Shown: in pieces, positions 6,470 through 36,838 of the stretch
Layout: every line of letters starts with the position of its first letter
Numbering within the stretch: position 1 is the first letter of the stretch
NCBI GenBank assembly: GCA_903862845.1
Contig: CAIOZS010000216.1
Coordinates: forward strand, 1-37,265
Direction of reading: 5' to 3'
From: an uncultured Thermoleophilia bacterium
GTDB taxonomy: Bacteria; Actinomycetota; Thermoleophilia; UBA2241
DNA: 37,265 bases
The notes under the pieces: generated by a model
Told to the model about the DNA's origin: nothing
What the model saw: only the letters and a program-made list of their open reading frames with translations
Database searches by the model: none
Translations under genes and position numbers: made by a program

Positions 6470-6729
6470 GGGGTTCGAGTACCTCCTCGGTCACCGCGCA
6501 GAGCATATGCTATTTCGGGCGCGAGTTTCGTCCGGGCTCCCGGCCGCGCCGACGTCTCTCGGCGCCGCGGCCGCGGCCCGTCGATCGCTCGCGCTCTCGT
6601 AGGCGGCGAAGTTCGCATTCCTCGCGATCCGTGCGACGAATCGTGCGGCAAACCTCGCGCGCCGGCTGCGAACCAGGTCTGCCGGGCGAGCCCTATGGTA
6701 CCCTGTCGCCGGGCGAAGAAGGAGGCCTT

Positions 6730-8154: not shown

Positions 8155-8292
8155 CATCGGCGTCGCGCCGGCGCCCCATGCGCTGTGGCCGGCGCGCCGC
8201 GGGCGTCGCTCTCGCGATAGAGTGAAGGCGGACGCCGCTCCTCTGCAGATGGCGTCTGCTGAAGCAGCTGCGGGAAGAACGAGGAGGGCACG

Positions 8293-9750: not shown

Positions 9751-9959
9751 GCGACGAGCACGTGCTCCTCGGCGTCACGTACGTGTCCGTTCTTCCGCAC
9801 GTACGGCTGCGCCGCGGTGGCGTTCGGCCACGAGCGCGATATCCTCATGGGTGAACGCCCGCGCCGCGAGCAGTTCGGCCGCGGCTGCGAACCGCGGGCG
9901 CTGACGAAACGGATCGACGACACCGGCCCGCCGGATGGGCCGCGAAGCAAGGGGGAGGC

Positions 9960-11384
9960 GTGGCACGACCGCGACTGAGCTATCTGACCGACAGTGACAA
10001 GGAGCTCGTCCACGAGCAGACGCTGCGCGTGCTCGCCGAGGTCGGCGTCGGCTACGGCACGCCGACACTGACCGCGCTGCTCGCCGACGCAGGCGCGACC
10101 GTGGACGCCGAGGCGCTCACTGCGAAGCTGCCGTGGGAGCTCATCCAGCGCTGCCTGAAGATGGTCCCGCGAGACGTTCATCTGGCGGGGCGCGATCCGG
10201 CCTACGACTGCTGGATCAACGACCAGGGGATGCTATACACGAGCGACGGCGCCGCCACCTACATGCTCGACGACCTGACCGGTGAGCGGCACGAAGGCAC
10301 CGCCGCCGATCTGGCCACGATGATGTGCCTCTACGACGCGATGCCCGAGATCGACTTCACCTGGGCCACCATCACCCCCGGCGACGTTGACGCGCGAGTC
10401 GGCAACCTCGAGATGGCGCGCATCACGTACGAGAGCTCGCGCAAGCATCTGCAGGACGAGGTCCGGCATCCAGACCAGGTGCCGGTGTTCATCGACATGC
10501 TCCAGGCGATCGCCGGAGCGCCGCTCCGCGAGCGCCCGATCTGGTCGGCGACCAACTGCACGATCGCTCCGCTGCAGCACGACGCCGAGATGACCGAGGC
10601 GCACATCCTCATGGCGCGAGCCGGCTGCCCCATCTTCGTGCTGCCGATGCCCCAGATGGGTACGACCGGGCCAATGAGCGTGCTTGGTACCAGCGTCGTC
10701 AACATGGCCGAGCTGCTGAGCGCGGTCGTGCTGTTCCAGCTCGCGGCCCCCGGGTGCGCGATGGTCTCCGCCGTCGGCTCGGCCGTCGCGGAGATGCGCA
10801 GCGGTCTTTACCTGTCGGGGACGCCCGAAGACGGGCTCATCAACCTCACCTGCATCGAGATGAGCAAGTTCTACGGGCTGCGCAGCCAGGGCAGCGCCGT
10901 GAGCTGCGACGCCAAGGCCTGCGACCTGCAGGCCGGCGCCGAGGGTATGCTCACGGGACTGGCGACGGCTCTCGCCGGGGCCGACGTCATGCTCGCCTTC
11001 GGCCTCATGGACAGCGCCCAGACGGCGAGCCTGGCGAAGACGGTGCTCGACGCCGACACGGTTAACGCCATTGAGCGCTTTCTGCGCGACGATCCGATTG
11101 ACGAGGCGCGTGCGCTGGTCGACGACATCGTCGCGGTTGGCATCGGCGGGCACTACTTGACGCGCAAGAGCACGCGGCAGTTCTATCGCGCCGGTGAGCT
11201 CTGGCAACCGCGGCTCTGGCACCGGGAGTCGTTCGAGCACTACGTCGACACTCCACTTGTGAAGGACGCCTGGGAACGCGCCCACGAGCTGATCGAGAAC
11301 AACGACGTGCCGCCGCTGCCCGAAGACGTTCAGCGGCACGTGAGCACGCTCATCGCCGACTACCTGCGCAGCCGCGAGCAATGA
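9960..11384 (+). CDS. MttB/MtgB-family methyltransferase, paralog 3
   Basis: GTG start, N-terminus MARPRLSYLTDSDKELVHEQTLRVLAEVGVGYG; same conserved blocks as paralogs 1 and 2; no in-frame TAG. Confidence 0.85.
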   Translation: MARPRLSYLTDSDKELVHEQTLRVLAEVGVGYGTPTLTALLADAGATVDAEALTAKLPWELIQRCLKMVPRDVHLAGRDPAYDCWINDQGMLYTSDGAATYMLDDLTGERHEGTAADLATMMCLYDAMPEIDFTWATITPGDVDARVGNLEMARITYESSRKHLQDEVRHPDQVPVFIDMLQAIAGAPLRERPIWSATNCTIAPLQHDAEMTEAHILMARAGCPIFVLPMPQMGTTGPMSVLGTSVVNMAELLSAVVLFQLAAPGCAMVSAVGSAVAEMRSGLYLSGTPEDGLINLTCIEMSKFYGLRSQGSAVSCDAKACDLQAGAEGMLTGLATALAGADVMLAFGLMDSAQTASLAKTVLDADTVNAIERFLRDDPIDEARALVDDIVAVGIGGHYLTRKSTRQFYRAGELWQPRLWHRESFEHYVDTPLVKDAWERAHELIENNDVPPLPEDVQRHVSTLIADYLRSREQ

Positions 11385-19826: not shown

Positions 19827-20921
19827 TCAGCCCTTCGGCTGCTGCTGCGTGATGCAGTGCACGTTGCCGCCGCCGAGCACGATCTCGCGGCCGGGCACGG
19901 TGACCACCTTGCGGTCGGCAAACAGGCGTTGCAGCGTGCTCAGCGCGACGGCGTCATTGGGGCCGTCGAAGGCGGGCATGATCACGCCGCCGTTGACGAT
20001 GAGGAAGTTGAGGTACGAGGCGGCCGTCTTGTCGCCGGGCACTCGCGGGATGGTGCCCTCGGCGGCGTCCACGCCCCAAGCCTCGTCCTCGGTGATCACC
20101 ATGATCGCCGGCATGGGCATGGTGTGCACCTCGAGCTTGCGCCCCTTGGCGTCGGTGGCCGCCTGCAGGCGCCGCAGGTTGTCCTGCAGGAGCTCGTAGC
20201 GCCAGTCGGCCTTGTCTTCGGTGATCGCGGCCAGCACGACGCCGGGCTTCACGAAGCAGGCGACATCGTCCACGTGGCCGTTGGTCTCTTCGGGGTCGAT
20301 ACCCTTGGCCAGCCAGATGACCGTGTCCACGTTCAGGTAGTCACGCAGGTGCTGTTCGATCTCTTCGCGGCTGAGCTGCGGGTTGCGACCGGGGGAGAGG
20401 AGGCACTCCTCCGTGGTGATCACGGTGCCTTCTCCGTCGACGTGGATCGAGCCGCCCTCCATGACCAGATGCGCCTTGTAGCGGTCGACGCGCTCGAGCT
20501 CGGAGATCTTGAGCGGGACCATCTGGTCCTTGTCCCAGGGAAAGTAGAGGCCGTCGTAGAGGCCGCCCCAGGCGTTGAAGTCCCAGTCGACCAGGCGCAC
20601 GTCGCCCTTGTCGTTGACAAGGAACGTGGGCCCGCAGTCGCGCATCCAGGCGTCGTTGCTGGAGATCTCGACGACGCGCACGTGCGCCGGCAGCAGGTTG
20701 CGGGCGTTTTCGTACTGGTCGTTGTTCACGCCGACCGTCACCGGCTCGAACTGCGAGACGGCAGTCGCCACCTGGACCCAGGCGCGCTGCGCCGGCTTGG
20801 CGCCCAGGCGCCAGTTGTCGGGGCGCTGCGGCCAGAGCATCCAGAGCTGCGCGTGCGGCTCGAACTCGCCGGGCATGCGAAAGCCGTCGGCGCGGGGTGT
20901 GCTGTCGATGGTGGTGCTCAT
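19827..20921 (-). CDS. aguA: Agmatine deiminase
   Basis: [71 protein letters not shown]. Start ATG overlaps the permease stop (ATGA). Confidence 0.92.
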
Positions 20922-22366
20922 GCTCTGCCTCCGGAGGCTTGCTTGCTGGTATCTGACTTGCGGCTCGCCTGCCAGTAGAGCCACCAGCCGATGAGCAGCG
21001 AGATGATCGTGCCCCCGCCGGTGATCGCCCAGAACGCGCCCTTCGACGTGCCCTCCACCGGGAAGTAGAAGAACAGGAACAGGGTCAGAACGATGCCCGC
21101 TTCGCACAGGATGGTGGCGATCCACGCGCCCGCCGCGCCACCCGGCACCGTGTACGGCCGCGGCTGGTCGGGGAACTTGCGGCGCAGCACGAGGAGCGCG
21201 GGGAACATCAGCAGATACGGGATGAGGAACACGATCGACGAAAGCGCGAAGAGCGTCCAGAAGACGCTCGCCTGACTCGGGTCGAGGACGTAGGCCAGCA
21301 CGGTGATGCCGGTCGCGATGAGGCCCATCAGGACGAACGCGTAGTCGGGCGTGCCGAAGCGCTTGTTCACATGCCCGAACACGCCCGGGGCGGTATCGTC
21401 GAGGCCGGTGGCGCTGATCGTCTGGTTGGCGCCGATCGACCACGTCACCATGTTGCCGAAGAACGTGAAGAGCAGGCCGACGACGACGATGTCGAAGAGC
21501 CACGTCGCGCCGCCGAAGACGTCGTTGAACATGAGCTTGAGCGCGTCGACGATGCCGGTGACGATGCTGACGTCGGCGGTCTTGGTCGCCGCCAGGACCC
21601 CGAAGGTGGCAAAGCAGTACACGGCGAGGATCGCCGCGCCGGCGACGATGATCATCTTGGGCACGTCGCGCTTGGGGTTCTTGATCGCGCCGCCGGCCGA
21701 GCTCATGAGCTCGAAGCCCATGTACGAGTAGATGATGATGGGGAGGAACGAGAGGCTGTCCGTGTTCCACGCCGGCACCCACTGGCTGAACGCGAACGAG
21801 TTGGCGGTACCGTGCTTGATCGCGAACACCACGCCCATGAGTCCCAAGCCGACCAGCACGATGACCTTGAGGGCTGCGCTCAGGTTGGGGATGAACTTGC
21901 TCCATTCGAGCGGCAGGATGCCGACGATCACGATCGCCCACACCATGCCGATGACGATGACGGCCTCCCAGAAGGGCGGCACGTCGACGTTGAACGCCAC
22001 CTCGATGGCGCCCACGAACAGCACGAAGACGGACGGCGCCCACAGGGCCACGTTGACCCAGTACATCCACGAGGTCACGGTGCCCAAGCCGGGGCCAAAG
22101 GCCTCCTTGACCCAGACGTAGATGCCGCCCTCGTCCGGCCACGCGCTGCCCAGCTCGGCGGTGACGAAGCCGTAGGGGATGAAGAAGAGCAGCCCCAGGA
22201 TGATCCAGAAGCCAAGCCCCTGGACACCCATCGCCGCCGAGCTGGCGACGGTGTCGGCGACGAGGATGGCCGAGACGCTGAACAGCACCATGCTGAACAG
22301 GCCAAACACCTTGGGCTTCTCGGCGAGCGTTGCGTCCATCGCTCCGGACTGCAGGTCAGTGGCCAT
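20918..22366 (-). CDS. APC-superfamily amino acid permease, likely agmatine/putrescine antiporter
   Basis: Multi-TM protein ([31 protein letters not shown]..., [23 protein letters not shown]); located between PTC and aguA in one transcription unit. Confidence 0.82.
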
Positions 22367-22399
22367 CGCGGTGCTTCCTTTCGCTGAAGCGGGTGGTGC

Positions 22400-23410
22400 T
22401 TAGATGAGCAGGGCCTTGCCGATCGGCTGCAGATCGAGATCGGCCGGAAGCGCGTCGATGCCGATGAGCGCGAGCATGAGTGCCTTCTGGAAGTGCATGC
22501 GGTTCTGGGCCTGCGGGAAGATGATCGAGGCGTCGCTGTCGGCGACGTCGTCGGTGACCTCCTCGCCGCGCATGGCCGGCAGGCAGTGCATGAACCGCGC
22601 GCCGGCTTTCGTGTGGCTCCAGAAGTCCTTGTTGACCTGGAACGGCTGGAACGCGGCGATGCGGTCCTTGTACTCCTCCTCCTGGCCGGTCCACCACCAG
22701 CAGTCGGTGTAGATGAAGTCGGCGTCGGCGATGGCCTCGAGCGGGTCGTTGGTGAGCAGGAACGAGCCGCCGCTCTGCGCGGCGAACCCGGCGGCCAGCG
22801 CGGCCAGCTCGGGGGACATCTCGTAGCCGGCGGCGTTGCCGATGCGCACGTTGAGGCCGAGCTTGGTGAGCGTTGTCGACAGGGAGTTGCAGGGGTGGGC
22901 GGCGTCACCGACGTAGGCGAACGTGACGCCGGCCAGCGTGCCGGCGTGCTCGAGGATGGTGAACGCGTCGCTCATGCTCTGGCACGGGTGACGGTCGTGG
23001 TCCATGCCGTTGATCACCGGGACCGTCGACCACTCGGCGAGCTCGTTGACGGTCTCGTTGAGCTTGCTGCGAATCTCGATGGCGGAGTTGTACTGGGACA
23101 GGGTGCGTGCCGTGTCGGCGATGCTTTCGCGGCCTGGCAGGTGGATCTCGCCGGGGCGCAGGTAGAGGGCGTTGCCGCCGAGCTCGGCGAAGCCGTTCTC
23201 GAAGCTGACGCGCGTGCGCGTTGAGGCCGCTTCGAAGATCATTGCCAGGTGCTGGCCGGGGAGGAACGGCGTGAGCGGGCGCTTCTTCCACAGCGCCTTG
23301 AGGTTCACGGCGAGCTTGAGCAGGTCCTCGAGCTCCTCACGCGTGTAGTCGAGGTCGGTCAGGAAGTGGCGGCCGCGAAACTTCCTGAGGGCGGGGAGCG
23401 TGGTGTCCAA
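22400..23410 (-). CDS. Putrescine carbamoyltransferase-like (ornithine carbamoyltransferase family)
   Basis: STRTRVSFE, HPCQSMSDAFTI, HCLPAMRGEEVTDDV. SGGSFLLTNDPLEAIADADFIYTDCWW resembles putrescine carbamoyltransferases; operon context with aguA. Confidence 0.8.
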   Translation of the reverse strand: MDTTLPALRKFRGRHFLTDLDYTREELEDLLKLAVNLKALWKKRPLTPFLPGQHLAMIFEAASTRTRVSFENGFAELGGNALYLRPGEIHLPGRESIADTARTLSQYNSAIEIRSKLNETVNELAEWSTVPVINGMDHDRHPCQSMSDAFTILEHAGTLAGVTFAYVGDAAHPCNSLSTTLTKLGLNVRIGNAAGYEMSPELAALAAGFAAQSGGSFLLTNDPLEAIADADFIYTDCWWWTGQEEEYKDRIAAFQPFQVNKDFWSHTKAGARFMHCLPAMRGEEVTDDVADSDASIIFPQAQNRMHFQKALMLALIGIDALPADLDLQPIGKALLI

Positions 23411-23434
23411 GGTGGTGCCTCCTGCCGGCGGTGT

Positions 23435-23454
23435 TTGTCTGTCCGGACGGACAA
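23435..23454. promoter_or_regulatory. Candidate TetR operator
   Basis: TTGTCTGTCC|GGACGGACAA: 20-bp palindrome with one mismatched pair, in the divergent intergenic region 25 bp from the PTC start. Confidence 0.6.
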
Positions 23455-23463
23455 GTGTATGCT
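23435..23463 (+). promoter_or_regulatory. Candidate sigma70-type promoter for the tetR-like gene
   Basis: TTGTCT-17 nt-TATGCT, overlapping the palindrome. Confidence 0.4.
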
Positions 23464-23528
23464 AGCAACCATGGCACGTGATGGCAAGCCTTTGCGGTCG
23501 ACGAGCGGGATCGGGCTGAGGTGAAGCG

Positions 23529-24191
23529 ATGGACGAGAAGCGCGTGAGCCTGGCGCGCGACGAAGGGCTCCTCGAGCCACTCCTCCTGGATGACCCCATG
23601 GAAGCACTGGCCCCGACGGCGCGACGCCTGCTGGCCGCCGCCCAGCGCCTGCTGGCGAGCGGCGGCTTCGAGGCGCTGAAGCTGTCGGCGATCGCCCGCG
23701 AGGCCGGCGAATCGAAGGCCAGCATCGGCTATCACTTCGGCAACAAGGCCGGGCTGGTCACGGCGCTCGTCGACTCCTTCGCGCACGACGCCAACCGTGG
23801 GCTCATGGAGGAGACCGGTGAGATGCCCAGGGGGGAGGAGCGCATCCACGCGCTCATCGACGGCGAGAGGCGCATCGCCGCGGACGCCGAGTCCTTTCAG
23901 TCGTTCTTCGAGGTGCTGCCCCATGCGCTTCGCGACGAGGACCTGCGCGAGCGCGTCGCGGCGCTCTACGACGGCTACCGCGACACCGTGCTGCGCTGCC
24001 TGGGCGCGACCGACCCGGCGGCGGCAGAGCGGCTGCGGCCCTTCGCCATGCTCATGATCGCGATCGTCGACGGCCTCGCGATCCAGCACGGCCTCGACTC
24101 CGAGGGGGCCGACGTGGCCGCCGCGACGGATCTCTGGGAGCGGCTCGCGCGGCCGTATCTCACCGCGGCCGGGTCGCTCGAACAGGGCTGA
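23529..24191 (+). CDS. TetR-family transcriptional regulator
   Basis: TetR HTH: AAQRLLASGGFEALKLSAIAREAGESKASIGYHFGNKAGLVTALV. Confidence 0.88.
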   Translation: MDEKRVSLARDEGLLEPLLLDDPMEALAPTARRLLAAAQRLLASGGFEALKLSAIAREAGESKASIGYHFGNKAGLVTALVDSFAHDANRGLMEETGEMPRGEERIHALIDGERRIAADAESFQSFFEVLPHALRDEDLRERVAALYDGYRDTVLRCLGATDPAAAERLRPFAMLMIAIVDGLAIQHGLDSEGADVAAATDLWERLARPYLTAAGSLEQG

Positions 24192-24242
24192 CGCGGGCCG
24201 GCGGCGTGACTGCGGCGCCCTTTCGCAGGTATCCTAGGCGCC

Positions 24243-25259
24243 ATGGACGCGGCCATCATCTGGGACGAGGCCTACGCCGAGCACGAGACCGGCGCCCACC
24301 CCGAGGGCGCCGATCGCATCGCCAGGGTGGTCGAGCACCTGCGCACCACCGATCTGTGGCCGCGCCTCGCCGTCGTGAAGCCCGAGCCGGCCACCGAGGA
24401 CGATGTCCTGCTCGTGCACACGCGCTTGCACCTGAACACGGTGAAGCGAGCTGCGGCGGGGGGCAGCAGCTGGCTCGACCCCGACACGCACGTCTCGCCG
24501 CGCAGCTACGAGATCGCGTTGCTCTCGGCGGGCGGCGCCATCGCGGCGACGAGGCTGTGGAGCCGCGGCCTCGTACCGTTCGCGCTCATCCGCCCGCCCG
24601 GCCATCACGCGACGCCCGACCGCGCCATGGGCTTCTGCCTCTTCAACAACATCGCCATCGCCGCGGCGCGGCTGCTGGCCGAAGGCTACGTGCGCGTCGC
24701 CATCATCGACTGGGACGTGCACCACGGCAACGGCACCCAGGCCGCGTTCTACGCCGAGCCGAGGGTCCTGTTCGTGAGCCTGCACCAGTGGCCCCACTAC
24801 CCCGGCAGCGGCTTCTTCAACGAGTGCGGCGAGGGTGACGCCCTGGGCCGCACCGTCAACCTGCCGCTGCCGTCCGGGTCGACAGATGCCGACTACGCGC
24901 ACGCCTTCGAGGCGGTCGTCGAGCCCATCGTCAGGCAGTTTGCGCCGCAGGCGATCCTCGTCTCGGCCGGGGAGGACATCCACCGCGACGATCCGCTGGG
25001 GAGCATGCTGGTCACGGAGGCGGGCTTCGCGGACATGGCGCTGCGCTGCGTGCGCCTCGCCCGCGAGCTCTGCGAGGGCCGCCTCGCCTTTGTGCTCGAG
25101 GGCGGCTACGACCGCGACGCGACGGCGCGCTCCGTCGAAGCCATCCTGCGCGCCGTCAGCGACGAGGCGGCGCCGGCCATCGCGGCGGAGGGCACGGAGC
25201 GTGCCGCCGCCGCCATCGCGCGGGCGCGCGCGACCCAAGCGGCGTACTGGGAGCTGTAG
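24243..25259 (+). CDS. Histone deacetylase family / acetylpolyamine amidohydrolase-like hydrolase
   Basis: HPEGADRI, IRPPGHHATPDRAMGFCLFNNIAIAA, IIDWDVHHGNGTQ, SAGEDIHRDDPLGSM, LEGGYD. Confidence 0.87.
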   Translation: MDAAIIWDEAYAEHETGAHPEGADRIARVVEHLRTTDLWPRLAVVKPEPATEDDVLLVHTRLHLNTVKRAAAGGSSWLDPDTHVSPRSYEIALLSAGGAIAATRLWSRGLVPFALIRPPGHHATPDRAMGFCLFNNIAIAAARLLAEGYVRVAIIDWDVHHGNGTQAAFYAEPRVLFVSLHQWPHYPGSGFFNECGEGDALGRTVNLPLPSGSTDADYAHAFEAVVEPIVRQFAPQAILVSAGEDIHRDDPLGSMLVTEAGFADMALRCVRLARELCEGRLAFVLEGGYDRDATARSVEAILRAVSDEAAPAIAAEGTERAAAAIARARATQAAYWEL

Positions 25260-25280: not shown

Positions 25281-26471
<1,191 letters not shown>

Positions 26472-26540: not shown

Positions 26541-27335
26541 TTAGACGACGATGCAGCGCGGCCCGAGTCGCCCGATCTCCTCACGCATGTCTCCGTCGAC
26601 GCCGTCATCGACGATGACGGCGTCGACCCGGTCGAGCGTGCAGATCACGACGTCGCCGACGACGCCGAACTTGCTGCTGTCGGCGAGCACGATCACCTCG
26701 CCGCGGGTCTGGCGCATCATGGCGCGCTCAACGCCGGCCAGGCCGAGGCTCGGCGTCGTGACGCCCTCTTCGAGGCTGAGGGCGTCGGCTCCCAGGATGA
26801 AACGGGAGGCGTGAAAGTGGCCGGCGACCTCGATGGGAAGCGCCCCCTGCAGCGTGTTGGAGCGCGGCCGATACGAGCCCCCCAGGAGGATCACGTCGAG
26901 AGAGGTCCTCTGCGCCGAGGACACCGCGCCGACGTTGTGAGTCACGATGCGCGCCTTGATCTGCGGGTCGACGTGACTGAGGACCTGAGTGGCGGTAGTG
27001 CCGGAGCTGAGAAACACCGTCTCGCCCGGCTTTATCAGCGCCGCCGCTGCCTGCGCGATGCGGCGTTTCTCCTCCGAGTGGGCGCGGACGTTGGTGACGT
27101 ACAGCGGCTCCTCGATCATGCGTCGCTTGAGAATTGCGCCGCCGTGCGTGCGCGACAGCACCCCTTCCTGCTCCAGGCGCTCGAGGTCGCGGCGGATGGT
27201 CATCTCGGAGACGCTGAGGTTCTCGCTGAGCAGCGACACACGGACGGCGCGCCGCTCTTCGAGGAGCTCGACGATGCGCGCGCGGCGCTCGGCCGGGATC
27301 ATCTCACGGACTTCGGGTGCACCCTCTGGTGGCAT
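26541..27335 (-). CDS. DeoR/GlpR-family transcriptional regulator (copy 1)
   Basis: MIPAERRARIVELLEERRAVRVSLLSENLSVSEMTIRRDLERLEQEGVLSRTHGGAI; DeoR sensor domain (FLSSGTTATQVL). Confidence 0.9.
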   Translation of the reverse strand: MPPEGAPEVREMIPAERRARIVELLEERRAVRVSLLSENLSVSEMTIRRDLERLEQEGVLSRTHGGAILKRRMIEEPLYVTNVRAHSEEKRRIAQAAAALIKPGETVFLSSGTTATQVLSHVDPQIKARIVTHNVGAVSSAQRTSLDVILLGGSYRPRSNTLQGALPIEVAGHFHASRFILGADALSLEEGVTTPSLGLAGVERAMMRQTRGEVIVLADSSKFGVVGDVVICTLDRVDAVIVDDGVDGDMREEIGRLGPRCIVV

Positions 27336-27420: not shown

Positions 27421-27479
27421 GCAAAGGCACGCGGGAGAGCACAGAGCCGACCTCGAAGCGCGTCGCCGCGGCCGCCAGA

Positions 27480-27517
27480 CGCCGGAACGCCGGGCCGACT
27501 GGCCCGGCGTTCCGGCG
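27480..27517 (-). terminator. Hairpin downstream of APC permease gene
   Basis: Perfect 17-bp stem CGCCGGAACGCCGGGCC-gact-GGCCCGGCGTTCCGGCG. Confidence 0.7.
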
Positions 27518-27542
27518 CTTGCGTCTTGCGCGTGCTAGATCG

Positions 27543-29177
27543 TCACTCCGGCGGCACCTCGAGGAAGGCGTAGGACACGTCGATGCCCTTGCCCTTGTTG
27601 TACTGCCGGCCGATCCAGTAGCCGACGAAGCAGACCAGGAAGACGGCGGCGACGACGATGTACGGGGTCGTGCCCTTGAGGCCGTAGCCCGCCTCTGTGA
27701 GGAATGCGATCAGGGCGCCGAGGCCGAAGACAAAGCCGATGATGCCGAAGATCGTGACCAGCGGGAAGCCGCCGAGCGTGTACTTGGCGCCCGGCGAAGC
27801 CTCGTACAGCGCCTTGGCGCGATACGGCATGAGCGCGGCCGCGAGACAGCTGATCGTGAAGACGTAGCCGCAGGCGAACGTCACGCCCAGGGTCAGGTTG
27901 TACCAGCTTGCCCAGTAGTTGTAGCCGTAGATCGCGACGCACCCCAGCAGGAAGTAGATGAGGTGCGCGTTCATCGGGGAACGATAGCGCGGGCTGACCT
28001 TGGAGAGCCAGGCGGGCAGCGTGCGGTCGAGCGACATGCCCACCATGACGCGCGTCATGCCAATGTAGCAGTTGCAGGTGATCTGCAGCGACGCGAGGAT
28101 GAAGCAGAGCGCCACGATGATCGTGATGATCGGGTTGGGCGAGATCACGATGGCGAACATGCCGGGGAAGGGAAGGACGCTGCCTATCCCGTCGCCGGAG
28201 GCGCTCACCAGGTAGTAGTACGAGTGAGACACCGCGTTGAAGAACGCTGTGCCTACCGCATGCTCCTCGGCCCACGCCAGGACGGCGAGGCTGATGCCCA
28301 TGGCGACCATCGAGCCGACGATGATGAACATCTGGTTCTTGAAGACGCGGGCGCCCTTGATCTCGCCGCCCTGCTCCACGCTGTACGTCGCCCACTGCAG
28401 GCTCGTCCAGACGATCGGCATGGCCAGCAGCGTGGCCCCGAGCGCGAACTTGGGCAGGAGGTTGACGCCCGCGGCGGCGACGTCCTTCTGGACCCAGTGG
28501 TAGTAGTCCGTCCGGCCATCGACGACATTGGAGAAGTGGTTCATGGCCGTTGCGAACTGCTCCGGCGACGTGCGCAGGAACTGCACCAGCAGGATGACCA
28601 CCAGGATGGCGGTCGCGGCGAACATGAAGTACTGCAGGCGCACGTAGTGCTTGAAGCCGGCCACCAGCAGCGCTGCCATCGCCGCCGCGCCGATGATGCT
28701 AATGATGACGTGGCCCTGCGCCGACTGTGCCCAGACGGCGGCGTCGATGAGGCTCTTGCTGTCGTAGTAGACGCCGAGGCCCATGAACAGCGGCGCCACG
28801 CCGAGGGTGGCGAGAAGCCAGCCGGCGAGCGCGACCCACTGCAGGATCCAGATCACGAACCCGCTCATCACCACCGGGAACCCGATGGCGCCGCCGAGCA
28901 CGCGGCTCTGGAACACGTAGTCGCCGCCGCTGCGCGGCATGGCGGTGGCCATCCACACGTAGGCCAGTGCGATCGGAAGCTCCAGAAGGATCGCGAAGAG
29001 GCACGCCTTCCACACGGAGACGCCCGGGAACGCCGCCGGCGCCCAGACGAAGGTCCACGGGAAGATGACGCCCATGGTGAGGAAGTTGTACATGAACGCT
29101 GACCAGGGCGACATCACCCTGGAGAGCCCCGAGGCTTTGCGGCTGAAGACCTCAGGCTTTGCTGCTGCTGTTGCCAT
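27543..29177 (-). CDS. APC-superfamily permease
   Basis: Long multi-TM ORF; ATG 29177 preferred over upstream TTG 29195. Segments YVWMATAMPRSGGDYVFQSRVLG, NCYIGMTRVMVGMSLDRTLPAWLSKVSPRYRSPMNA typical of APC transporters. Confidence 0.82.
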   Translation of the reverse strand: MATAAAKPEVFSRKASGLSRVMSPWSAFMYNFLTMGVIFPWTFVWAPAAFPGVSVWKACLFAILLELPIALAYVWMATAMPRSGGDYVFQSRVLGGAIGFPVVMSGFVIWILQWVALAGWLLATLGVAPLFMGLGVYYDSKSLIDAAVWAQSAQGHVIISIIGAAAMAALLVAGFKHYVRLQYFMFAATAILVVILLVQFLRTSPEQFATAMNHFSNVVDGRTDYYHWVQKDVAAAGVNLLPKFALGATLLAMPIVWTSLQWATYSVEQGGEIKGARVFKNQMFIIVGSMVAMGISLAVLAWAEEHAVGTAFFNAVSHSYYYLVSASGDGIGSVLPFPGMFAIVISPNPIITIIVALCFILASLQITCNCYIGMTRVMVGMSLDRTLPAWLSKVSPRYRSPMNAHLIYFLLGCVAIYGYNYWASWYNLTLGVTFACGYVFTISCLAAALMPYRAKALYEASPGAKYTLGGFPLVTIFGIIGFVFGLGALIAFLTEAGYGLKGTTPYIVVAAVFLVCFVGYWIGRQYNKGKGIDVSYAFLEVPPE

Positions 29178-29232
29178 CTCTACCCCCCGTATCAAGTAGC
29201 GAAGCGGACTGGACTGACGCGCGCCGGCGACG

Positions 29233-30234
29233 TCACCCCGACGTCATCTGATAGCCGACGACCTTTCCCGGCTGAAGATTCAAGATGCATCCCCTCAGGA
29301 TGCCCTCGCCGTACTCACTGCCAGGGTTGATCACCGTCGTCTTGCCGACTTTGACCAGGCCCCGCGACTCGTGGATATGGCCGGTGAGCATGAGCATCGG
29401 CTGGTACTTCTCTACGACCTTGCGCACTGCGGTGCTGCCGGCCGGGGCGGACTGTGCGACGCCCCCCACCACCACGGGGGTGGGGGGGTCCGTGGACCAG
29501 TCCAGCTTGGGGCAGTCGTCCAGCGTGCAATCGTAGGGCGGCACGTGGAAGTTGAAGATCGCGCTCGTGAAGTCGTCGATGCCCTGCACTGCTTGTTCCA
29601 GGTGTTCCTCCAGCACCTCCTCCTCGACCTCCCGCGGGGTATCCCAGGGAGTTGGGTTGCTGTATCCGCAGTTGGCCATCGGATACAGGTCGTCCATCAT
29701 GACAACCTTGCCCTCGCAGTTGACGATGTGCTCGCTGTCGATGTTCTCGAGCACGCTCAGCACGTCCATGGGGTCGTCGTTCCCCCCCGTCACGTACCAT
29801 TTGACGCTCGTGCCCGCGAGCCTTTCGTCGGCCAGCGCGATCCAGCGCTCCAGGCGCTCGCGGCCGAGCTGGCGGAACAGGGCGTCGATCTCGCCCTGGC
29901 TCTCCTGCATAGCGTGAAGCTCGTCTTCCTCGAGGGTCACGTGGTAGAAGCCCAGGGTCTCGATGCGCTCCTTGACGGCCTGCAGGGCCGAGTCGCCGTC
30001 GAGGGACTCGGTCGTCCCTTGCAGCGTGACTCGGTAGTGGCCGTCGTGCTCGTGGACGATCGGCACGAGGAACTTGCCGGTGATGTCGCCGCCCATGATG
30101 ATGTGGTCGACCTTGTAGAACTTGGCGCCGTTCAGAAACTTGCGGAAGGTCCGCTCGGACCCATGGATGTCCGTCGCGTAGAACACCCGCGTCTGCTTCG
30201 ATCCGGCGTCATCCTTCTTTTTCCAGAATGCCAT
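29233..30234 (-). CDS. Calcineurin-like metallophosphoesterase
   Basis: Motifs ATDIHGS, IMGGDITG, TGGNDDP, LTGHIHES; start MAFWKKKDDAG at 30234. Confidence 0.82.
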   Translation of the reverse strand: MAFWKKKDDAGSKQTRVFYATDIHGSERTFRKFLNGAKFYKVDHIIMGGDITGKFLVPIVHEHDGHYRVTLQGTTESLDGDSALQAVKERIETLGFYHVTLEEDELHAMQESQGEIDALFRQLGRERLERWIALADERLAGTSVKWYVTGGNDDPMDVLSVLENIDSEHIVNCEGKVVMMDDLYPMANCGYSNPTPWDTPREVEEEVLEEHLEQAVQGIDDFTSAIFNFHVPPYDCTLDDCPKLDWSTDPPTPVVVGGVAQSAPAGSTAVRKVVEKYQPMLMLTGHIHESRGLVKVGKTTVINPGSEYGEGILRGCILNLQPGKVVGYQMTSG

Positions 30235-30356
30235 CGTGCGGTCACCTGTCCTGAGGTCCGTGTGGGGGGGCCTGTAGCGCCCCCGGCTTGGCTGCACTGC
30301 GTTGTGGCTAGGAGCGGCGCGCCGACGGCGCCCCCACGCTAGCGCGTCTTCGGTGG

Positions 30357-31160
30357 CTAATCGATGGTCTTGTACCACCTCACTTTGTCACCGACCCTGG
30401 CGCGGAGCTTCCACTTCGTGCCCTTCGGATAGTCGTCCATCGCCGTGCGAAGCTCGGCGATGCGCCGTGCCACGATGCCCTTGTCCTCTTCCGTCAGGTC
30501 GAGGTGGGGGAGGTAGTCGCGCACCTTGTCGAGGTTCATCGTCGTGGTGCGCCAAAGGCCCCATTCCGCCGCGCACAACTTGGCCACGTGCGCGGAGTTG
30601 ATGCACTCCTCGTCGCTCGCGTCGACGCGATGCTCTCGAAGCAGCATGATGGTGTCGATGATGTCCTTCTCGTTGATCTTGACGATCTGCATCTTCTCGA
30701 GCATGAGCTCCGCGAGCGGGATCGTGGGATCGTCGACTTCGAGGCGGCCTTTCCAGTAGATGGGATGGCAGAAGTCGAGCTTGTCCATGAAGACGTCGAC
30801 GTGGAGCGGGATGCTGGGGTTGTTGAAGATGAGGCGCCCGCCCTCGGCATGAAAGGCGTTGATCTCCACGTCCTCGTCGTAGCCGATCGACTTGAAGAGG
30901 TCGCGGATCGGCTTGGACTGCTTGCCGTATCCGGCGAAGTCGATGTCGGTGTAGACACGGTTCAGCTTCTCCTGAAAGTAGCCGAACTCGGGGCAGTGGT
31001 TGTGGAACGCCAGGGCGCCGATGATGCGCAGCGTCACGCCTTTCTGCTTGCCCGCATCGACGACTCGCACGGCCTCCTCCTGGAAGACCTTGGCCTGCTC
31101 CTTGTCGACTGTGCCCATGCCGATCTCCTCGTCGATGGGCTGCGTCTCTTCGTCGGTCAT
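30357..31160 (-). CDS. Nucleotidyltransferase-fold protein (function unknown)
   Basis: LRIIGALAFHNHCPEF...NRVYTDIDFAGYGKQ (G...DxD-like NTase signature), LHVDVFMDKLDFCHPI; 267 aa. Confidence 0.6.
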   Translation of the reverse strand: MTDEETQPIDEEIGMGTVDKEQAKVFQEEAVRVVDAGKQKGVTLRIIGALAFHNHCPEFGYFQEKLNRVYTDIDFAGYGKQSKPIRDLFKSIGYDEDVEINAFHAEGGRLIFNNPSIPLHVDVFMDKLDFCHPIYWKGRLEVDDPTIPLAELMLEKMQIVKINEKDIIDTIMLLREHRVDASDEECINSAHVAKLCAAEWGLWRTTTMNLDKVRDYLPHLDLTEEDKGIVARRIAELRTAMDDYPKGTKWKLRARVGDKVRWYKTID

Positions 31161-31244
31161 GTGATGCTCCCGTGTCGTCTCTTTCGATGCTCACAGTAGT
31201 GACAGTCGCCGTCGGCGGTGTCTGGCGGGCAGTCCAAGGCATCC

Positions 31245-32030
31245 TCAGACCGCCTCACAACGCGGTCCGGCTCGTTGGATCTCGTCGCGGACCTTCTTGT
31301 CGACCCCGGTGTCGACCAGCACCACGTCGATCTGATCGAGAGGGCAGATGACCACTGCGCACACGAGCCCGATCTTGTTGAAGTCGGCGACCACCACGAC
31401 CTCACCGCGCGTGCGGCGGATCATGGCGAGCTCGATCGCGGCCACGGCGATGCTCGGCGTCGTGAGGCCCGCCTTCAAGTCCAGGCCGTCGGCCCCGAGG
31501 ATCGCCTTGTCGGCGTGGAACTGCCCGATCATGTCGAGCGGCCAGGTGCCTTCGACGGAGTTCAGCTGAGGGCGGTAGAGACCTCCCAGAAAGACGATCT
31601 CGAGGCGAAGGCCCTGGGTCTCCGCGGCGGCTCCCAAGCTGGGAGTTACGATGCGTGCCTCGAGCTCCGGATCTACGTAGCGCAGAACATGCGCCACCGT
31701 CGTGCCCGAGCCGAGGAACACGGTATCGTGCGGCTCGATCATCGCGGCGGCAGCCTTGGCGATCCGCGCCTTCTCTGCCGCCTGCTTCACCTCGGCGCCT
31801 TCGCGGCCTTGATCGTCCGTCGAGCGCTTCCTCAGCACGGCGCCGCCGTAGGAGCGGGCGAGCAAGCCCTCCCGCTCGAGGATGTCCAGGTCGCGACGAA
31901 TGGTGATCTCCGAGACGCCGAGAGCCTCGCTCAGCGTGGCGACCTTCACGACGCGCTGGACCTCCAGCGCTTCGACGATGCGCGTGCGCCTCTCGGCGGG
32001 GATCATCTCTGGAGCGTGAGACACGGGCAA
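31245..32030 (-). CDS. DeoR/GlpR-family transcriptional regulator (copy 2)
   Basis: MIPAERRTRIVEALEVQRVVKVATLSEALGVSEITIRRDLDILEREGLLARSYGGAVL; FLGSGTTVAHVL; clear paralog of copy 1. Confidence 0.9.
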   Translation of the reverse strand: MPVSHAPEMIPAERRTRIVEALEVQRVVKVATLSEALGVSEITIRRDLDILEREGLLARSYGGAVLRKRSTDDQGREGAEVKQAAEKARIAKAAAAMIEPHDTVFLGSGTTVAHVLRYVDPELEARIVTPSLGAAAETQGLRLEIVFLGGLYRPQLNSVEGTWPLDMIGQFHADKAILGADGLDLKAGLTTPSIAVAAIELAMIRRTRGEVVVVADFNKIGLVCAVVICPLDQIDVVLVDTGVDKKVRDEIQRAGPRCEAV

Positions 32031-32102
32031 CGGGCTCTCCTCGCAGTCTTGCGACCATGACTGATCGATCAGAGTCGGGCATAATCGTTCAGAGATGATC
32101 GC

Positions 32103-32130
32103 ATCATATGATTGCGGGACCAGTTGTCAA
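32103..32130 (-). promoter_or_regulatory. Sigma70-like promoter of DeoR copy 2
   Basis: On the minus strand TTGACA-N16-TATGAT, then N8-CTCTG. The -10 lies in a perfect ATCATATGAT palindrome (32103-32112). Confidence 0.68.
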
Positions 32131-32375: not shown

Positions 32376-34409
32376 CTACTCGGCGGCACCGTCGAGCAGG
32401 TTCTTGGCGCTCTGGTAGACGTTGTCGGCGGTGAAGCCGAATTCCTTAAAGAGCGTGCCGGCGGGAGCCGAGGCGCCGAAACGGTCGAGAGCGATGATCT
32501 GGCCGCCGTCACCGACCCAGCGCTCCCAGCCCATCGAGACGCCCGCCTCGACGGCCAGACGGCGGCTGCACGAGAGCGGCAGCACGTCCTCGCGATAGTC
32601 GGCGTTCTGCCGGCGGAACAGCTGCCACGACGCCATGTTGACCACGCGGGAGCGCACGCCCTCGGCCACAAGGCGCTCGTGCGCCTCGAGTACCAGAGCC
32701 ACCTCGCTGCCGCTGGCCATGAGGATCACGTCGGGGGCGCCACCCTCGGAGGCGTCGGCCACCACGTAGGCGCCGCGGGCGATGCCGCTCGCCGGAGCGT
32801 ACTTGGTGCGGTCGATCGTCGGCAGGTTCTGGCGCGTCAGCATGAGTCCGACAGGGCCGTCGCCGGTCTGAAGGGCGATCTTCCAGGCCTCGATGGTCTC
32901 GTTGGCGTCGGCCGGACGCAGATCGATGAAGTTCGGCGTGGCCCGCAGCATGGCCAGATGCTCGACCGGCTGGTGAGTGGGACCGTCCTCCCCCACCCCG
33001 ATGCTGTCGTGCGTCAGCACGTAGGTCACGGGGATCCCCATGAGCGCGGCGAGCCGCATCGCGGGGCGCATGTAGTCGACGAACACGAAGAACGTGGCCA
33101 CGTACGGGCGGACGCCGCCGTGCACGGCCATTCCGTTGCCCATCGCCGCCATGGCCAGCTCGCGCACGCCGAAGTGAAAGTTGCGCCCGGCGGGAGTGGC
33201 CGCCTGCTGGTCGGGCGCGTCCTTGATCCAGGTGTTGTTGGAGGGCGCCAGATCGGCCGAGCCACCAATGAGCGTCGGCAGGTGCGGCGCCAGAGCGTTG
33301 ATGGCCTTGCCAGAGGCGGATCGCGTCGCCACGGCGCCATCCTCAGGCTTGAACACCGGCAGGTCGACATCCCAGCCGGCCGGCAGTTCGCGGCTCCAGG
33401 CGGTCTCCCACTGCGCGGCGCGTGCGGGGTCCGCCGCGGTCCATGCGGCGTAGCGCTCGCGCCAAGCCGCGTGCGCGGCTGCGCCGCGCTTCCCGGCCTC
33501 TTCGTAGAACGCTCTCACGTCGCCCGCCACAAAGAACGCCGGCTCGAGCGGCCAGCCGCAGGCTTCCTTCGTGAGCTTGACCTCGTCTTCGCCGAGCGGA
33601 GCGCCGTGGGCGCCCGCCGTATCTTGCTTGTTGGGCGAGCCGCAGCCGATGTGCGTGCGCACGGCGATGAGCGACGGCTTGCCCGTCTCGGCCTTCGCCG
33701 CGGCGATTGCCGCATCGATGGCCTCCACGTCGTTGCCGTCCGCGACCTTCTGCACGTGCCAGTGATAGGCCTCAAAGCGCGCACACACATCTTCGGTGAA
33801 GGCGAGGTCGGTCGAGCCGTCGATGGTGATGTGGTTGTCGTCGTAAAGGACGACGAGCTTGCCCAGCTTCTGATGGCCGGCGAACGAGGCGGCCTCGCTG
33901 CTGATGCCCTCCATCATGTCGCCGTCGCCGGCGAGCGCGTAGGTGAAGTGGTCCATTACCGCCGGACCGTCGCCGTTGAACGTCGCCCCGAGGAAGCGCT
34001 CGGTCACGGCCATGCCGACGGCGTTCGCGAAGCCCTGGCCGAGGGGCCCCGTGGTCGTCTCGACGCCCGCGGTGTGCCCGTACTCGGGGTGGCCGGGCGT
34101 CTTGCTGCCCCACTGGCGGAAGGCGCGCAGATCATCGAGGGTCAGGTCGTAGCCGGTGAGATGGAGCAGAGAGTAGAGCAGCATGCTCGCGTGACCCGCC
34201 GAGAGCACGAAGCGGTCGCGATCGGGCCAGGCCGGATCGGCCGGATCGAAGCGCAGGTGCCGCGTGAACAGTGTGTGCGCCACGGCGGCGGCGCCCATGG
34301 GCATACCTGGGTGACCGGACTTGGCTTTCTGCACGCCGTCGACGGAGAGAAAGCGGATGGTTTCGATGCAGCGCTCTTCGAGGGTCTGTGCGCTCGCCAC
34401 TGGGCTCAC
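32376..34409 (-). CDS. tkt: Transketolase
   Basis: [92 protein letters not shown] start. Confidence 0.95.
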
Positions 34410-34454
34410 CTGGATCCTTTCGTCCTAGTTCGTCCGCCGCGGTCGGGGGCGGAA

Positions 34455-34509
34455 GCCCGTCAGCCTCCGCCCTCCAGTGAAGACGGGAGGGCGGAGGCTG
34501 CGGACGGGC
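34455..34509 (-). terminator. Long hairpin between aminotransferase and transketolase genes
   Basis: CAGCCTCCGCCCTCC / GGAGGGCGGAGGCTG 15-bp stem extended by GCCCGT/ACGGGC across a 3-nt bulge. Confidence 0.65.
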
Positions 34510-34530
34510 GTCATACGCGCGTCAGACTTC

Positions 34531-35613
34531 TCAGAAGTACTCGCGCACGAAGGTCACGAAGCGCTCGCTCTCTTCGGGGGTGCCCGGCGTGACGCGGAAG
34601 TAGCCTTCTTTGCCGTTGATCGGCTTGATGCTCTTGATGAAGAGCTTCTGCATGTCCGCGCCCGCCTGGACGATCTCGGCGCTGGTCTTGCCGCTCGACG
34701 AGGCGTCGATGAGCATGTAGTTGCCGTGGGGCGGGAACGGCTTGAGGCCCTTTGCCTCGAGCTCCTTTACAAAGGTAGCCATCCACTCGTTGTTGTACTT
34801 GACCTTCTCCTTGACCTCGCCGGTGTCGAGGATCGCCTCGGCCGCTGCCATGGCCATGAGGCTGAGGTTCCACGGCAGGTACATGAGGTTGAAGGCGTCG
34901 ACCAGGGTCGGCGACGCGACGACGTAGCCAAAGCGCACGCCGGCCAAGCCGAAGGCCTTCGAGAAGGTGTGCGAGAGAAAGACGTGCGGGTACTTCTTGA
35001 CGAGGTCGATCTTGGCCTCGACCTGCGGATGATAGTCCAGGTAGGCCTCGTCGATGCAGAGCGGGATGCCGAGCTCGCAGAACTTGATGAGGTCGTCGTC
35101 CTCGATGAAGATGCCCGTCGGGTTGTTCGGGTTGATGATGAGGATGAGCTTGGTCTTGTCGGTGACCGCCGCCAGCATCGCGGGGACGTCGTACTGCAGG
35201 TCCGGCTCGCGCAGGTTGACCTGCACGGTCTTCGCGTTACAGAGGCCGGCGCGCGAGGGGAACATCTCGAAGGTCGGGTTGGAGCAGAGGAATTCATCGC
35301 CCGGCTGCAGGAAGATGCGCATCATCGCGTCGATCGTCTCGGAGGAGCCGTTGGCGAGGGCGATGTTCTCCGCCGCCACGCCGTGGAGCTTGCCCAGCTT
35401 CTCACGCAGCCGGTAGGCGCGATCCGGATAGCGGTTGCCCCTCTTGGCCATGTCGGTGATGGCTTCGACGACCGCGTCCGACGGCGGCACAGGGTTCTCA
35501 TTGAGCATCATGCGGCCCATCTCGGGCTGCGCCCAGGCCTTATCGAGGATGCCGGTGTTGTACTCGGGAGCCGTCCACACGTAGGGGTTGATGAGATCTT
35601 TGATGTCGGCCAT
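34531..35613 (-). CDS. Class I/II PLP-dependent aminotransferase, HisC-like
   Basis: NPNNPTGIFIEDDDL, CIDEAYLDYHP, SHTFSKAFGLAGVRFGYV PLP-lysine motif. Confidence 0.85.
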   Translation of the reverse strand: MADIKDLINPYVWTAPEYNTGILDKAWAQPEMGRMMLNENPVPPSDAVVEAITDMAKRGNRYPDRAYRLREKLGKLHGVAAENIALANGSSETIDAMMRIFLQPGDEFLCSNPTFEMFPSRAGLCNAKTVQVNLREPDLQYDVPAMLAAVTDKTKLILIINPNNPTGIFIEDDDLIKFCELGIPLCIDEAYLDYHPQVEAKIDLVKKYPHVFLSHTFSKAFGLAGVRFGYVVASPTLVDAFNLMYLPWNLSLMAMAAAEAILDTGEVKEKVKYNNEWMATFVKELEAKGLKPFPPHGNYMLIDASSSGKTSAEIVQAGADMQKLFIKSIKPINGKEGYFRVTPGTPEESERFVTFVREYF

Positions 35614-35638
35614 GCTCTATTTCCTTTCGTCAGCGCGG

Positions 35639-36838
35639 TCAGACGTCCGCGAGGCAGCTGCCCGCGAACGCGACCATCTCGTTGGTGGCCTTCGAGAAGG
35701 CCTCCGCGGTCTTGACCAGCGCCGGATGCGTGTTGTACTCGGCACGGGTGTAGCCGTCTTCGTCGTAGGCCCGCGAGAAGTACGGGATCTGCATGAGCTT
35801 GTCCATGACTTCCTTGGGCGGATCGACGGCGATGCGATTCTCTTCGAACTTGATATCTTCGGGATGCGGGAAGTTGATGCATTCGTCGATAAGCGACGGC
35901 GGGCAGGTGACGACGATGTCGGCGCCGGCCTTCTCCTCGAGGTGCCAGATCCGCTGCTTGCCGTCCACCGTTGGGCCCAGGCGCAGTGAGCAGGAGAGCA
36001 TCTTGCTCTGGTAGTCGCGCTCCTTGAGGGTGCGGTAGGCCTTCTTGAAGATCGCCAGCTCGGCGAGGCGCACGTCGCCCTCGGTGATCTCGATGCCCTT
36101 CTCTGCGCCTGCCTCGCGCAGACCGCCGAGGTCGCCGTAGCGGGCCTCCATGTGGGTGATCACCGAGCGCCACTTCGAAAGGTCGACGCCGTTCGCTTTG
36201 GCTTTCTCCAGGCCCCTCATCACCGACTTCGCGCAGTCCAGGAGCTGCGAGAGGACGAAGGTCAGGGTGTTGTTCGTGGCGATGCCGCGAGAGGTGAGCT
36301 CCTCGATGACCCCGTAGCCCTCCGCGGTGCCGGGCACCTTGATCATCACGTTGGGGTTGATGGTGTGGATCTCAAGGGCCTGCGCCAGCATCGCGTCCGC
36401 GTCGAAGGCGCTGCGCGGATCGACCTGACCGGACAGGAAGCCCTCCTTGTACCCCGACGCCTCGAACAGCGGCAGGAACATGTCGGAGCCCTGCTTGACG
36501 ACCTGCTTGTAGAGGAGCCAGAAGAGGCCTTCGGTGTCGAGGCCCTCGTTCTCAGCCAAGATCTTCGCGGCGACCTTCTGCCAGCGCGCCGGGTCGTCCT
36601 TGATGGCCGCCAGCGACAGGGGCGGGTTGGTGGTGACGCCGCGGAACAGCTGCCCCATGGGGTCATCCAGGTTGTACATGCGTGTGAACTGGTGCTTGAG
36701 GTTGTCCCGATCGCCGGCGTCCGCCTTGGCGAGCATCTTCTGGCACCAGTTGCCGAAGATCACCGGTGAGGAGTCCCACCAGATCTCCATTCCAGGACTG
36801 ACTGCGACAAGGTCTTCCAAGAGATTGCGTTCTTGCAT
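35639..36838 (-). CDS. Transaldolase family protein (long form, 399 aa)
   Basis: GVTTNPPLSLAAI, NVMIKVPGTAEGYGVIEEL, GIATNNTLTFVLSQLLD. Confidence 0.8.
   Translation of the reverse strand: MQERNLLEDLVAVSPGMEIWWDSSPVIFGNWCQKMLAKADAGDRDNLKHQFTRMYNLDDPMGQLFRGVTTNPPLSLAAIKDDPARWQKVAAKILAENEGLDTEGLFWLLYKQVVKQGSDMFLPLFEASGYKEGFLSGQVDPRSAFDADAMLAQALEIHTINPNVMIKVPGTAEGYGVIEELTSRGIATNNTLTFVLSQLLDCAKSVMRGLEKAKANGVDLSKWRSVITHMEARYGDLGGLREAGAEKGIEITEGDVRLAELAIFKKAYRTLKERDYQSKMLSCSLRLGPTVDGKQRIWHLEEKAGADIVVTCPPSLIDECINFPHPEDIKFEENRIAVDPPKEVMDKLMQIPYFSRAYDEDGYTRAEYNTHPALVKTAEAFSKATNEMVAFAGSCLADV

Follow-up and report, generated by a model that had tools for sequence, protein, structure and literature searches.

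Nitrogen uptake is known to be controlled by the addition and removal of a nucleotide in the system formed by GlnD, a uridylyltransferase/uridylyl-removing enzyme, together with PII and AmtB. Other nucleotidyltransferases (NTases) include the antibiotic adenylyltransferases ANT(2'')-Ia and LnuA, which transfer nucleoside monophosphates (NMPs) to small molecules, and the pol-beta superfamily also comprises signal-nucleotide synthases; metallophosphoesterases (MPEs), in turn, include cyclic-nucleotide phosphodiesterases. Here we describe a cassette encoding a stand-alone pol-beta NTase, a calcineurin-like MPE and an APC-superfamily permease, located in a 37,265-nucleotide stretch of DNA from an uncultured Thermoleophilia bacterium (assembly GCA_903862845.1, contig CAIOZS010000216.1), the whole of which is referred to below as the window (Table 1). 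The cassette is not a chance cluster and the pairing of NTase with MPE is well supported, with the two enzymes possibly serving to control amine uptake.

We counted the three genes in three sets of genomes, one class-wide (119 genomes), one covering the phylum Actinomycetota (297) and one from Chloroflexota (201), each of which includes the genome on which it was centred. In the class-wide set, MPE occurred in 23 genomes and NTase in 25, comprising all 23 MPE-bearing genomes and two more, and the permease subfamily was found in 25. The corresponding numbers across Actinomycetota were 39, 38 and 38, with both enzymes present in 37 genomes, all three proteins in 36 and neither enzyme in 257 (NTase-MPE association, Fisher p ~1e-43). 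Among Chloroflexota, NTase accompanied MPE in 44/44 genomes and occurred without it in just one more (45 in total; p ~1e-43), and shared ancestry does not readily account for a near-perfect pattern that recurs in two phyla. Moreover, in many Chloroflexota NTase lies several kb from MPE or on another contig, so that the coupling of the two enzymes extends beyond linkage. Positive genomes are spread across about ten family groups, and in the window's class other sampled members of most of these groups are without all three genes.

To describe gene order, we used 40 loci picked solely by the presence of MPE and flanked on either side by 2.5 kb or more of sequence. An APC gene was located within 4.5 kb of MPE in 38/40 of these loci, on the same strand in 37, and NTase within the same distance in 23/40, with median gaps of 59 bp between MPE and APC and 33 bp between MPE and NTase. 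The three genes stand together in the window's genome, and the full trio also resides on a 398-kb plasmid of the haloarchaeon Halobellus limi, where NTase is annotated only as a 'hypothetical protein'. APC and MPE are adjacent on a plasmid of Thermomicrobium roseum from which NTase is absent (the plasmid only was searched, not the chromosome). No fusions between NTase, MPE and permease were found. An earlier reading of the window, made from its sequence alone (hereafter, the sequence-only reading), had taken these genes to form an uptake module. Far from being rarely together, they proved to be frequent neighbours with near-perfect NTase-MPE co-occurrence at the genome level, and the counts bear out a conserved, uptake-linked module.

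At standard thresholds, neither Pfam nor NCBIfam assigns the NTase to a family, and no further Pfam domain was detected in its chain. Its match to AbiEii (PF08843) is faint (13.3 bits, cut-off 22.5), and other members give weak profile matches to NTP_transf_5, MdcG and the aminoglycoside adenylyltransferase profile Aminoglyc_resit. The pol-beta signature is nevertheless present, with G48-A49 in the hG[GSA] motif (the second position is A in the window and S, P or G in relatives), D72/D74 as DhD and D122 as the third aspartate. Because these three aspartates and K156 are invariant across 14 diverse members, the protein is likely to be active as an enzyme. An AlphaFold2 model with a pLDDT of 76, built from only 8 sequences, matched MenT1 (8an5), ANT(2'')-Ia and LnuA, which, with the catalytic-type residues, confirms the NTase fold assigned in the sequence-only reading; a sequence search of solved structures returned nothing significant. 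Its fold neighbours act as NMP transferases on small molecules or tRNA. Also conserved is a basic block at the C-terminus, PKxxWxxRAxxG. Four further paralogues are encoded in the window's genome, one of which (C33) sits in a second full trio, with the remaining copies (C291, C272 and C218) having no adjoining MPE or APC. We considered a toxin-antitoxin or defence system and rejected it on the basis of the Pfam score, the absence of a PADLOC match for NTase and the identity of the partner genes; no cognate antitoxin gene is adjacent, the neighbours being DeoR, MPE and APC in the window and MPE and APC in relatives.

For the MPE, the calcineurin-like label was upheld by several lines of evidence. 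Its metal-ligand motifs (D-x-H, GD, GN[HD], H and GH-x-H, represented here by D22xH24, GGD50, GN152DD, H230 and GH286IH288) are invariant in 12 diverse members, it scores 25.5 bits against Pfam Metallophos (cut-off 21.5), and its model (pLDDT 84) is closest to the solved folds of aq_1956 (2yvt), TT1561 (1uf3), Dbr1 and MPPED2, with SapH also among the fold neighbours. Searching solved structures with its sequence gave nothing significant. Its start was corrected from GTG 30378 to ATG 30234, which relatives favour as most likely the true translation start, yielding 333 aa. In a 97%-identical relative (L021:2959-3973, JAPLCL010000180.1), the MPE gene is split over two frames and lacks part of its sequence, owing either to genuine disruption or to misassembly.

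The permease scores 58.3 bits against AA_permease_2 (cut-off 27) and is distant from solved transporters such as GkApcT (5oqt, 6f34) and CAT1; its translation most likely starts at ATG 29177, behind GGGGG. Permeases encoded in cassettes, or elsewhere in cassette-bearing genomes, share a C-terminal peptide with the pattern G-[IVM]-[DN]-[VIL]-x(4-5)-[EDQ]-[ILV]-P-x-[ED], abbreviated as ...E-I/V-P-P-E; in the window it reads GIDVSYAFLEVPPE. A simple test pattern applied to the last five residues matched 84/86 permeases from cassettes or cassette-bearing genomes, including orphan copies without an MPE neighbour, as compared with 0/4 homologues that come either from genomes lacking MPE or from another context, linked to a response regulator, and 2/920 other open reading frames. 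The second APC gene of the window (20918-22366) lacks the peptide, and in one genome (G517), which carries an NTase at another site, the permease tail is identical to that of T. roseum over the last 14 residues. Since the terminal peptide is well kept among permeases that are only ~25% identical overall, it likely functions in binding or modification.

The four genes run in the same direction on the minus strand (27543-32030), as the sequence-only reading had described, and both the promoter-like sequence and the exact 17-bp hairpin between which it had placed them were recovered. A promoter scan found 3 sites where 0.8 +/- 1.1 were expected; the cassette promoter matches 11/12 of the consensus, and its -35 box, 16-bp spacing and -10-like hexamer are preserved in a four-locus comparison with the relatives L021, L032 and L033. 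Directly past the -10 box, a phylogenetic footprint across four related loci revealed a conserved block, GATCATCTnTGAACGGTCATG..GGTCATGATCG (32100-32061), a candidate for the place where the DeoR repressor would be expected to bind. At the opposite end, the hairpin region (27470-27525) folds with -48.9 kcal/mol and has no T-run; in L021, where the hairpin is conserved, a G-C pair is replaced by A-T through compensatory change. The hairpin is a probable terminator. The upstream transketolase gene ends with its own strong hairpin and T-rich tail (32354-32320), and a second TTGACA-16-TATGAT promoter, likewise conserved in relatives, precedes DeoR2, which therefore forms a separate transcription unit. 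Given these boundaries, DeoR1-NTase-MPE-APC is very probably transcribed as a single unit.

DeoR1 carries both HTH_DeoR and the DeoRC sensor domain and thus belongs to the DeoR family, with every NCBIfam match to a specific DeoR regulon (GlpR, AgaR and others) falling below cut-off. A DeoR gene adjoins the trio in the nearest relatives and in a few further loci, but most other loci have none; regulators found elsewhere include LacI-type and other proteins, and IclR in Halobellus. The proposal that DeoR is the defining head of the unit consequently did not stand, and we rejected it as a core member on account of its local distribution: DeoR is peripheral, and the core consists of APC, MPE and NTase.

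The genes that surround the cassette point to amine metabolism, a setting that had escaped the sequence-only reading. Neighbours (some named by eye from their sequences) include FAD/GcvT proteins resembling dimethylglycine or sarcosine dehydrogenases, choline-kinase-like proteins and MttB/MtmB/MtbB methyltransferases with a corrinoid protein, as well as agmatinase, a nitrilase-type amidase (N-carbamoylputrescine-amidase-like), an HDAC-type (acetylpolyamine-amidohydrolase-like) protein, aldehyde and alcohol dehydrogenases, ornithine carbamoyltransferase, DDAH and a putative cyclase. As these catabolic neighbours vary while the trio stays, the transporter appears to be the common factor, and the trio belongs to amine uptake rather than to one pathway; judged from this gene content, what the loci share is the import of amines and guanidino compounds. 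Within ~25 kb of the cassette, the window encodes HDAC-family, ornithine-carbamoyltransferase-type, BetI-like TetR and three MttB-family genes, and the most likely substrates in its clade appear to be methylated amines or betaine-type compounds. No riboswitch that would name the substrate (guanidine, S-adenosylmethionine or others) was matched by Rfam in the vicinity of the cassettes, where only rRNA, tRNA and PYLIS_2 were found. The uptake and modification module that had been proposed is partly supported: its uptake half is retained as a conserved unit, and its modification half would be reversible nucleotidylation, offered there as one option.

We propose a model in which the APC permease would import amines or guanidino compounds, NTase would add a nucleotide group to a common target and MPE, as a phosphodiesterase-type enzyme, would take it off again, thereby switching uptake on and off. 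Functional coupling of NTase and MPE, in trans as well, is the firmest part of this model. A writer and an eraser of one modification are the simplest reading of an NMP transferase coupled with a phosphodiesterase-type hydrolase, and phosphodiesterases are indeed among the fold neighbours of the MPE model. The permease, modified through its conserved and probably cytosolic C-terminal peptide, or a partner bound to this tail would be the likeliest target, because the catabolic genes change while the permease is constant and its tail conserved. In the window, the DeoR repressor of the operon would sense a phosphorylated metabolite. We infer the enzyme activities, their antagonism, the target, the direction, the effect on transport, the substrate and the inducer, and regard reversible nucleotidylation as the explanation that fits best. 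The full chain, an antagonistic nucleotidylation pair controlling an amine permease, is offered tentatively, as possible but somewhat short of probable. Extended to an unrecognised switch common to Actinomycetota, Chloroflexota and haloarchaea and reused for many amine substrates, with reversible nucleotidylation of an amine permease, or of a tail-docked partner, by a stand-alone NTase and a calcineurin-like MPE, the proposal becomes doubtful.

Several points weigh against this model. Both the enzyme activities and the target are predicted, and the best structural match of NTase reaches a TM score of only ~0.5 by target length. The genomes counted are related, hence non-independent samples, and most are draft metagenome-assembled genomes; the pairwise protein distances of 28 trios, whose correlation (r = 0.75-0.82) favours the coupling, were compared by a Mantel test that leaves the species tree in. 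In 17/40 loci the MPE-APC pair has no NTase nearby, this gene being nearly always elsewhere in the genome, and stand-alone NTase paralogues and orphan permease copies exist. Finally, the tail comparison rests on only four negatives, which makes it a lead rather than proof.

An alternative is that the two enzymes act on the imported compound itself, with NTase nucleotidylating the amine or its phosphorylated form in order to trap or activate it, and MPE later splitting the phosphodiester for catabolism. The proximity of the NTase fold to MenT1, ANT(2'') and LnuA and the weak Aminoglyc_resit and NTP_transf_5 matches of other members are in line with such chemistry, and a phosphorylated amine could come from the choline-kinase-like proteins encoded next to several cassettes. 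However, several loci have no kinase, the neighbouring substrates differ so widely (betaine/methylamines, agmatine, arginine) that a single chemistry serving every locus is difficult to envisage, and the conservation of the permease tail is left unexplained. We consider this metabolic role unlikely, if still a serious contender. It is also conceivable, at a somewhat lower probability, that the genes are merely co-selected, MPE serving on a catabolic phosphoester and NTase on RNA, as its AbiEii/MenT relatives do, all three being carried together for amine-rich habitats. The two genes are not always adjacent, stand-alone NTase paralogues occur in the window's family, and the basic C-terminal block of NTase could bind nucleic acid; yet co-selection fits poorly with near-perfect co-occurrence in two phyla, with genes that lie no more than tens of bases apart in many families and with the presence of the trio in an archaeon as well.

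Still less probable, and indeed very unlikely in our estimate, is a second-messenger circuit in which NTase would make a nucleotide signal that MPE degrades and that gates the permease or a CBS-domain partner. Both superfamilies offer precedents for such activities, the fold neighbours of MPE include MPPED2 and SapH, CBS-like proteins occur in three loci, and such a signal would act in trans, as the scattered genes of Chloroflexota require. Set against this, a profile search found no nucleotide-binding domain in the permease, CBS partners are rare, and no CD-NTase is among the listed fold matches of the NTase model. We retain reversible nucleotidylation of the permease, or of a partner docked to its tail, as our working model.

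Further features of the window and of related loci were also recorded. Upstream of the cassette, transketolase, HisC-like aminotransferase and long transaldolase-like genes lie in a row on the minus strand (32376-36838), and the same run adjoins the cassette in L022. The segment at 20918-25259, which carries APC2, ornithine/putrescine-carbamoyltransferase-like, BetI-like TetR and HDAC-family genes, is a possible polyamine or arginine degradation island. Three consecutive MttB-family genes on the plus strand (6631-11384) contain no in-frame stop and score below the NCBIfam cut-off for trimethylamine methyltransferases, and are likely non-pyrrolysine (betaine-type) members. The 3' end of a 23S rRNA gene is found on the plus strand at 1-419, together with a 5S rRNA gene. 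Parts of the pyrrolysine machinery were seen in Thermoleophilia, the C-terminal domain of PylRS (TIGR02367, 312 bits, cut-off 178) being encoded in the window's genome and in four relatives. Cassette-adjacent MtbB-type dimethylamine methyltransferase genes have one in-frame TAG (read in three), Rfam PYLIS_2 was matched there in four, and no pyrrolysine tRNA was found within 1.5 kb of pylS. CBS-like proteins, which form one cluster by sequence, are encoded near cassette genes at L025:3590-4453, L079:10868-11674 and L042:2963-3766 and are a possible nucleotide-sensing partner in some lineages.

Table 1. Features of the cassette and its surroundings (window positions unless a locus is named).
Feature	Position	Strand	Evidence
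NTase, 267 aa, pol-beta superfamily, core member	30357..31160	-	D72, D74, D122, K156; AlphaFold2 model
MPE, calcineurin-like metallophosphoesterase, 333 aa, core member	29233..30234	-	metal-ligand motifs, model, relatives' starts
APC-superfamily (AA_permease_2) permease, 544 aa, core member	27543..29177	-	profile; genome-level co-occurrence
Codons of the conserved C-terminal peptide GIDVSYAFLEVPPE and stop, candidate docking/modification site	27543..27587	-	tail comparison
DeoR1, DeoR-family repressor (HTH_DeoR + DeoRC), local regulator	31245..32030	-	profile matches
Sigma-70-like cassette promoter, TTGACA-16-TATGAT, 11/12	32103..32130	-	conserved in L021, L032, L033
Conserved operator-like block GATCATCTCTGAACGATTATG..CTGATCGATCAG, candidate DeoR1 operator	32061..32100	-	four-locus phylogenetic footprint
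Perfect 17-bp hairpin, loop of 4, 3' of the APC gene	27480..27517	-	compensatory change in L021
DeoR2, second DeoR-family regulator, own conserved promoter (27420-27393)	26541..27335	-	flanking gene; follows APC in L021, L107
APH/homoserine-kinase-like phosphotransferase, flanking gene	25281..26471	-	also adjoins DeoR2 homologue in L033
PylRS-domain/pyrrolysine-related loci	G000:C15:983-1708 (L102); L023:7852-9276; L032:147-1547; L033:11999-13399; L093:11179-12582		

The sequence-only reading had recognised no named pathway with this composition, and we likewise found no matching named system in the family libraries or the literature searched; the trio is not described in the open-licence papers covered, an absence that does not by itself establish novelty. 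Every part comes from a known superfamily, and it is their combination, the near-obligate co-occurrence in two phyla, the archaeal presence and the permease tail that are apparently undescribed. If the model is true, it would represent a new way in which prokaryotes regulate amine import, by reversible nucleotidylation and independently of the PII system, and both an NTase that lacks a family model and a so far uncharacterised subfamily of phosphoesterases would gain a function. Should the mechanism prove wrong, the cassette still marks, in uncultured lineages, the import of methylated amines, polyamines and guanidino compounds.

Each component of the cassette can be set beside a described relative. 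The permease shares its superfamily with GkApcT and CAT1, which are distant from it, and the conserved C-terminal peptide is a feature of the cassette permeases. The MPE resembles aq_1956, TT1561 and YfcE/MJ0936-type proteins in fold and in the motifs D-x-H, GD, GN-D and GH-x-H, but is longer, with conserved stretches beyond the short regions matched by Pfam and NCBIfam, and is partnered with a permease. The AbiEii/MenT toxins, of the same superfamily as NTase, provide its closest solved fold (MenT1), whereas NTase falls below the Pfam cut-off, has no PADLOC match and keeps a phosphoesterase and a permease as constant partners. ANT(2'')-Ia and LnuA share the pol-beta fold, with a weak profile match in two NTase members, yet identity is only ~10-17%, and NTase has a conserved C-terminal extension in addition to its permease and MPE partners. 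In its logic the cassette resembles the control of nitrogen uptake by GlnD, PII and AmtB, where the nucleotide is attached by a pol-beta NTase and taken off by a metal-dependent hydrolase. GlnD, however, is a single chain that holds both activities along with HD and ACT domains and acts on PII, whereas the cassette has a 267-aa single NTase, a calcineurin-like MPE as the putative remover, no PII and an APC permease as its proposed target; owing to these differences in domain architecture and target, the cassette is not a member of the GlnD family.

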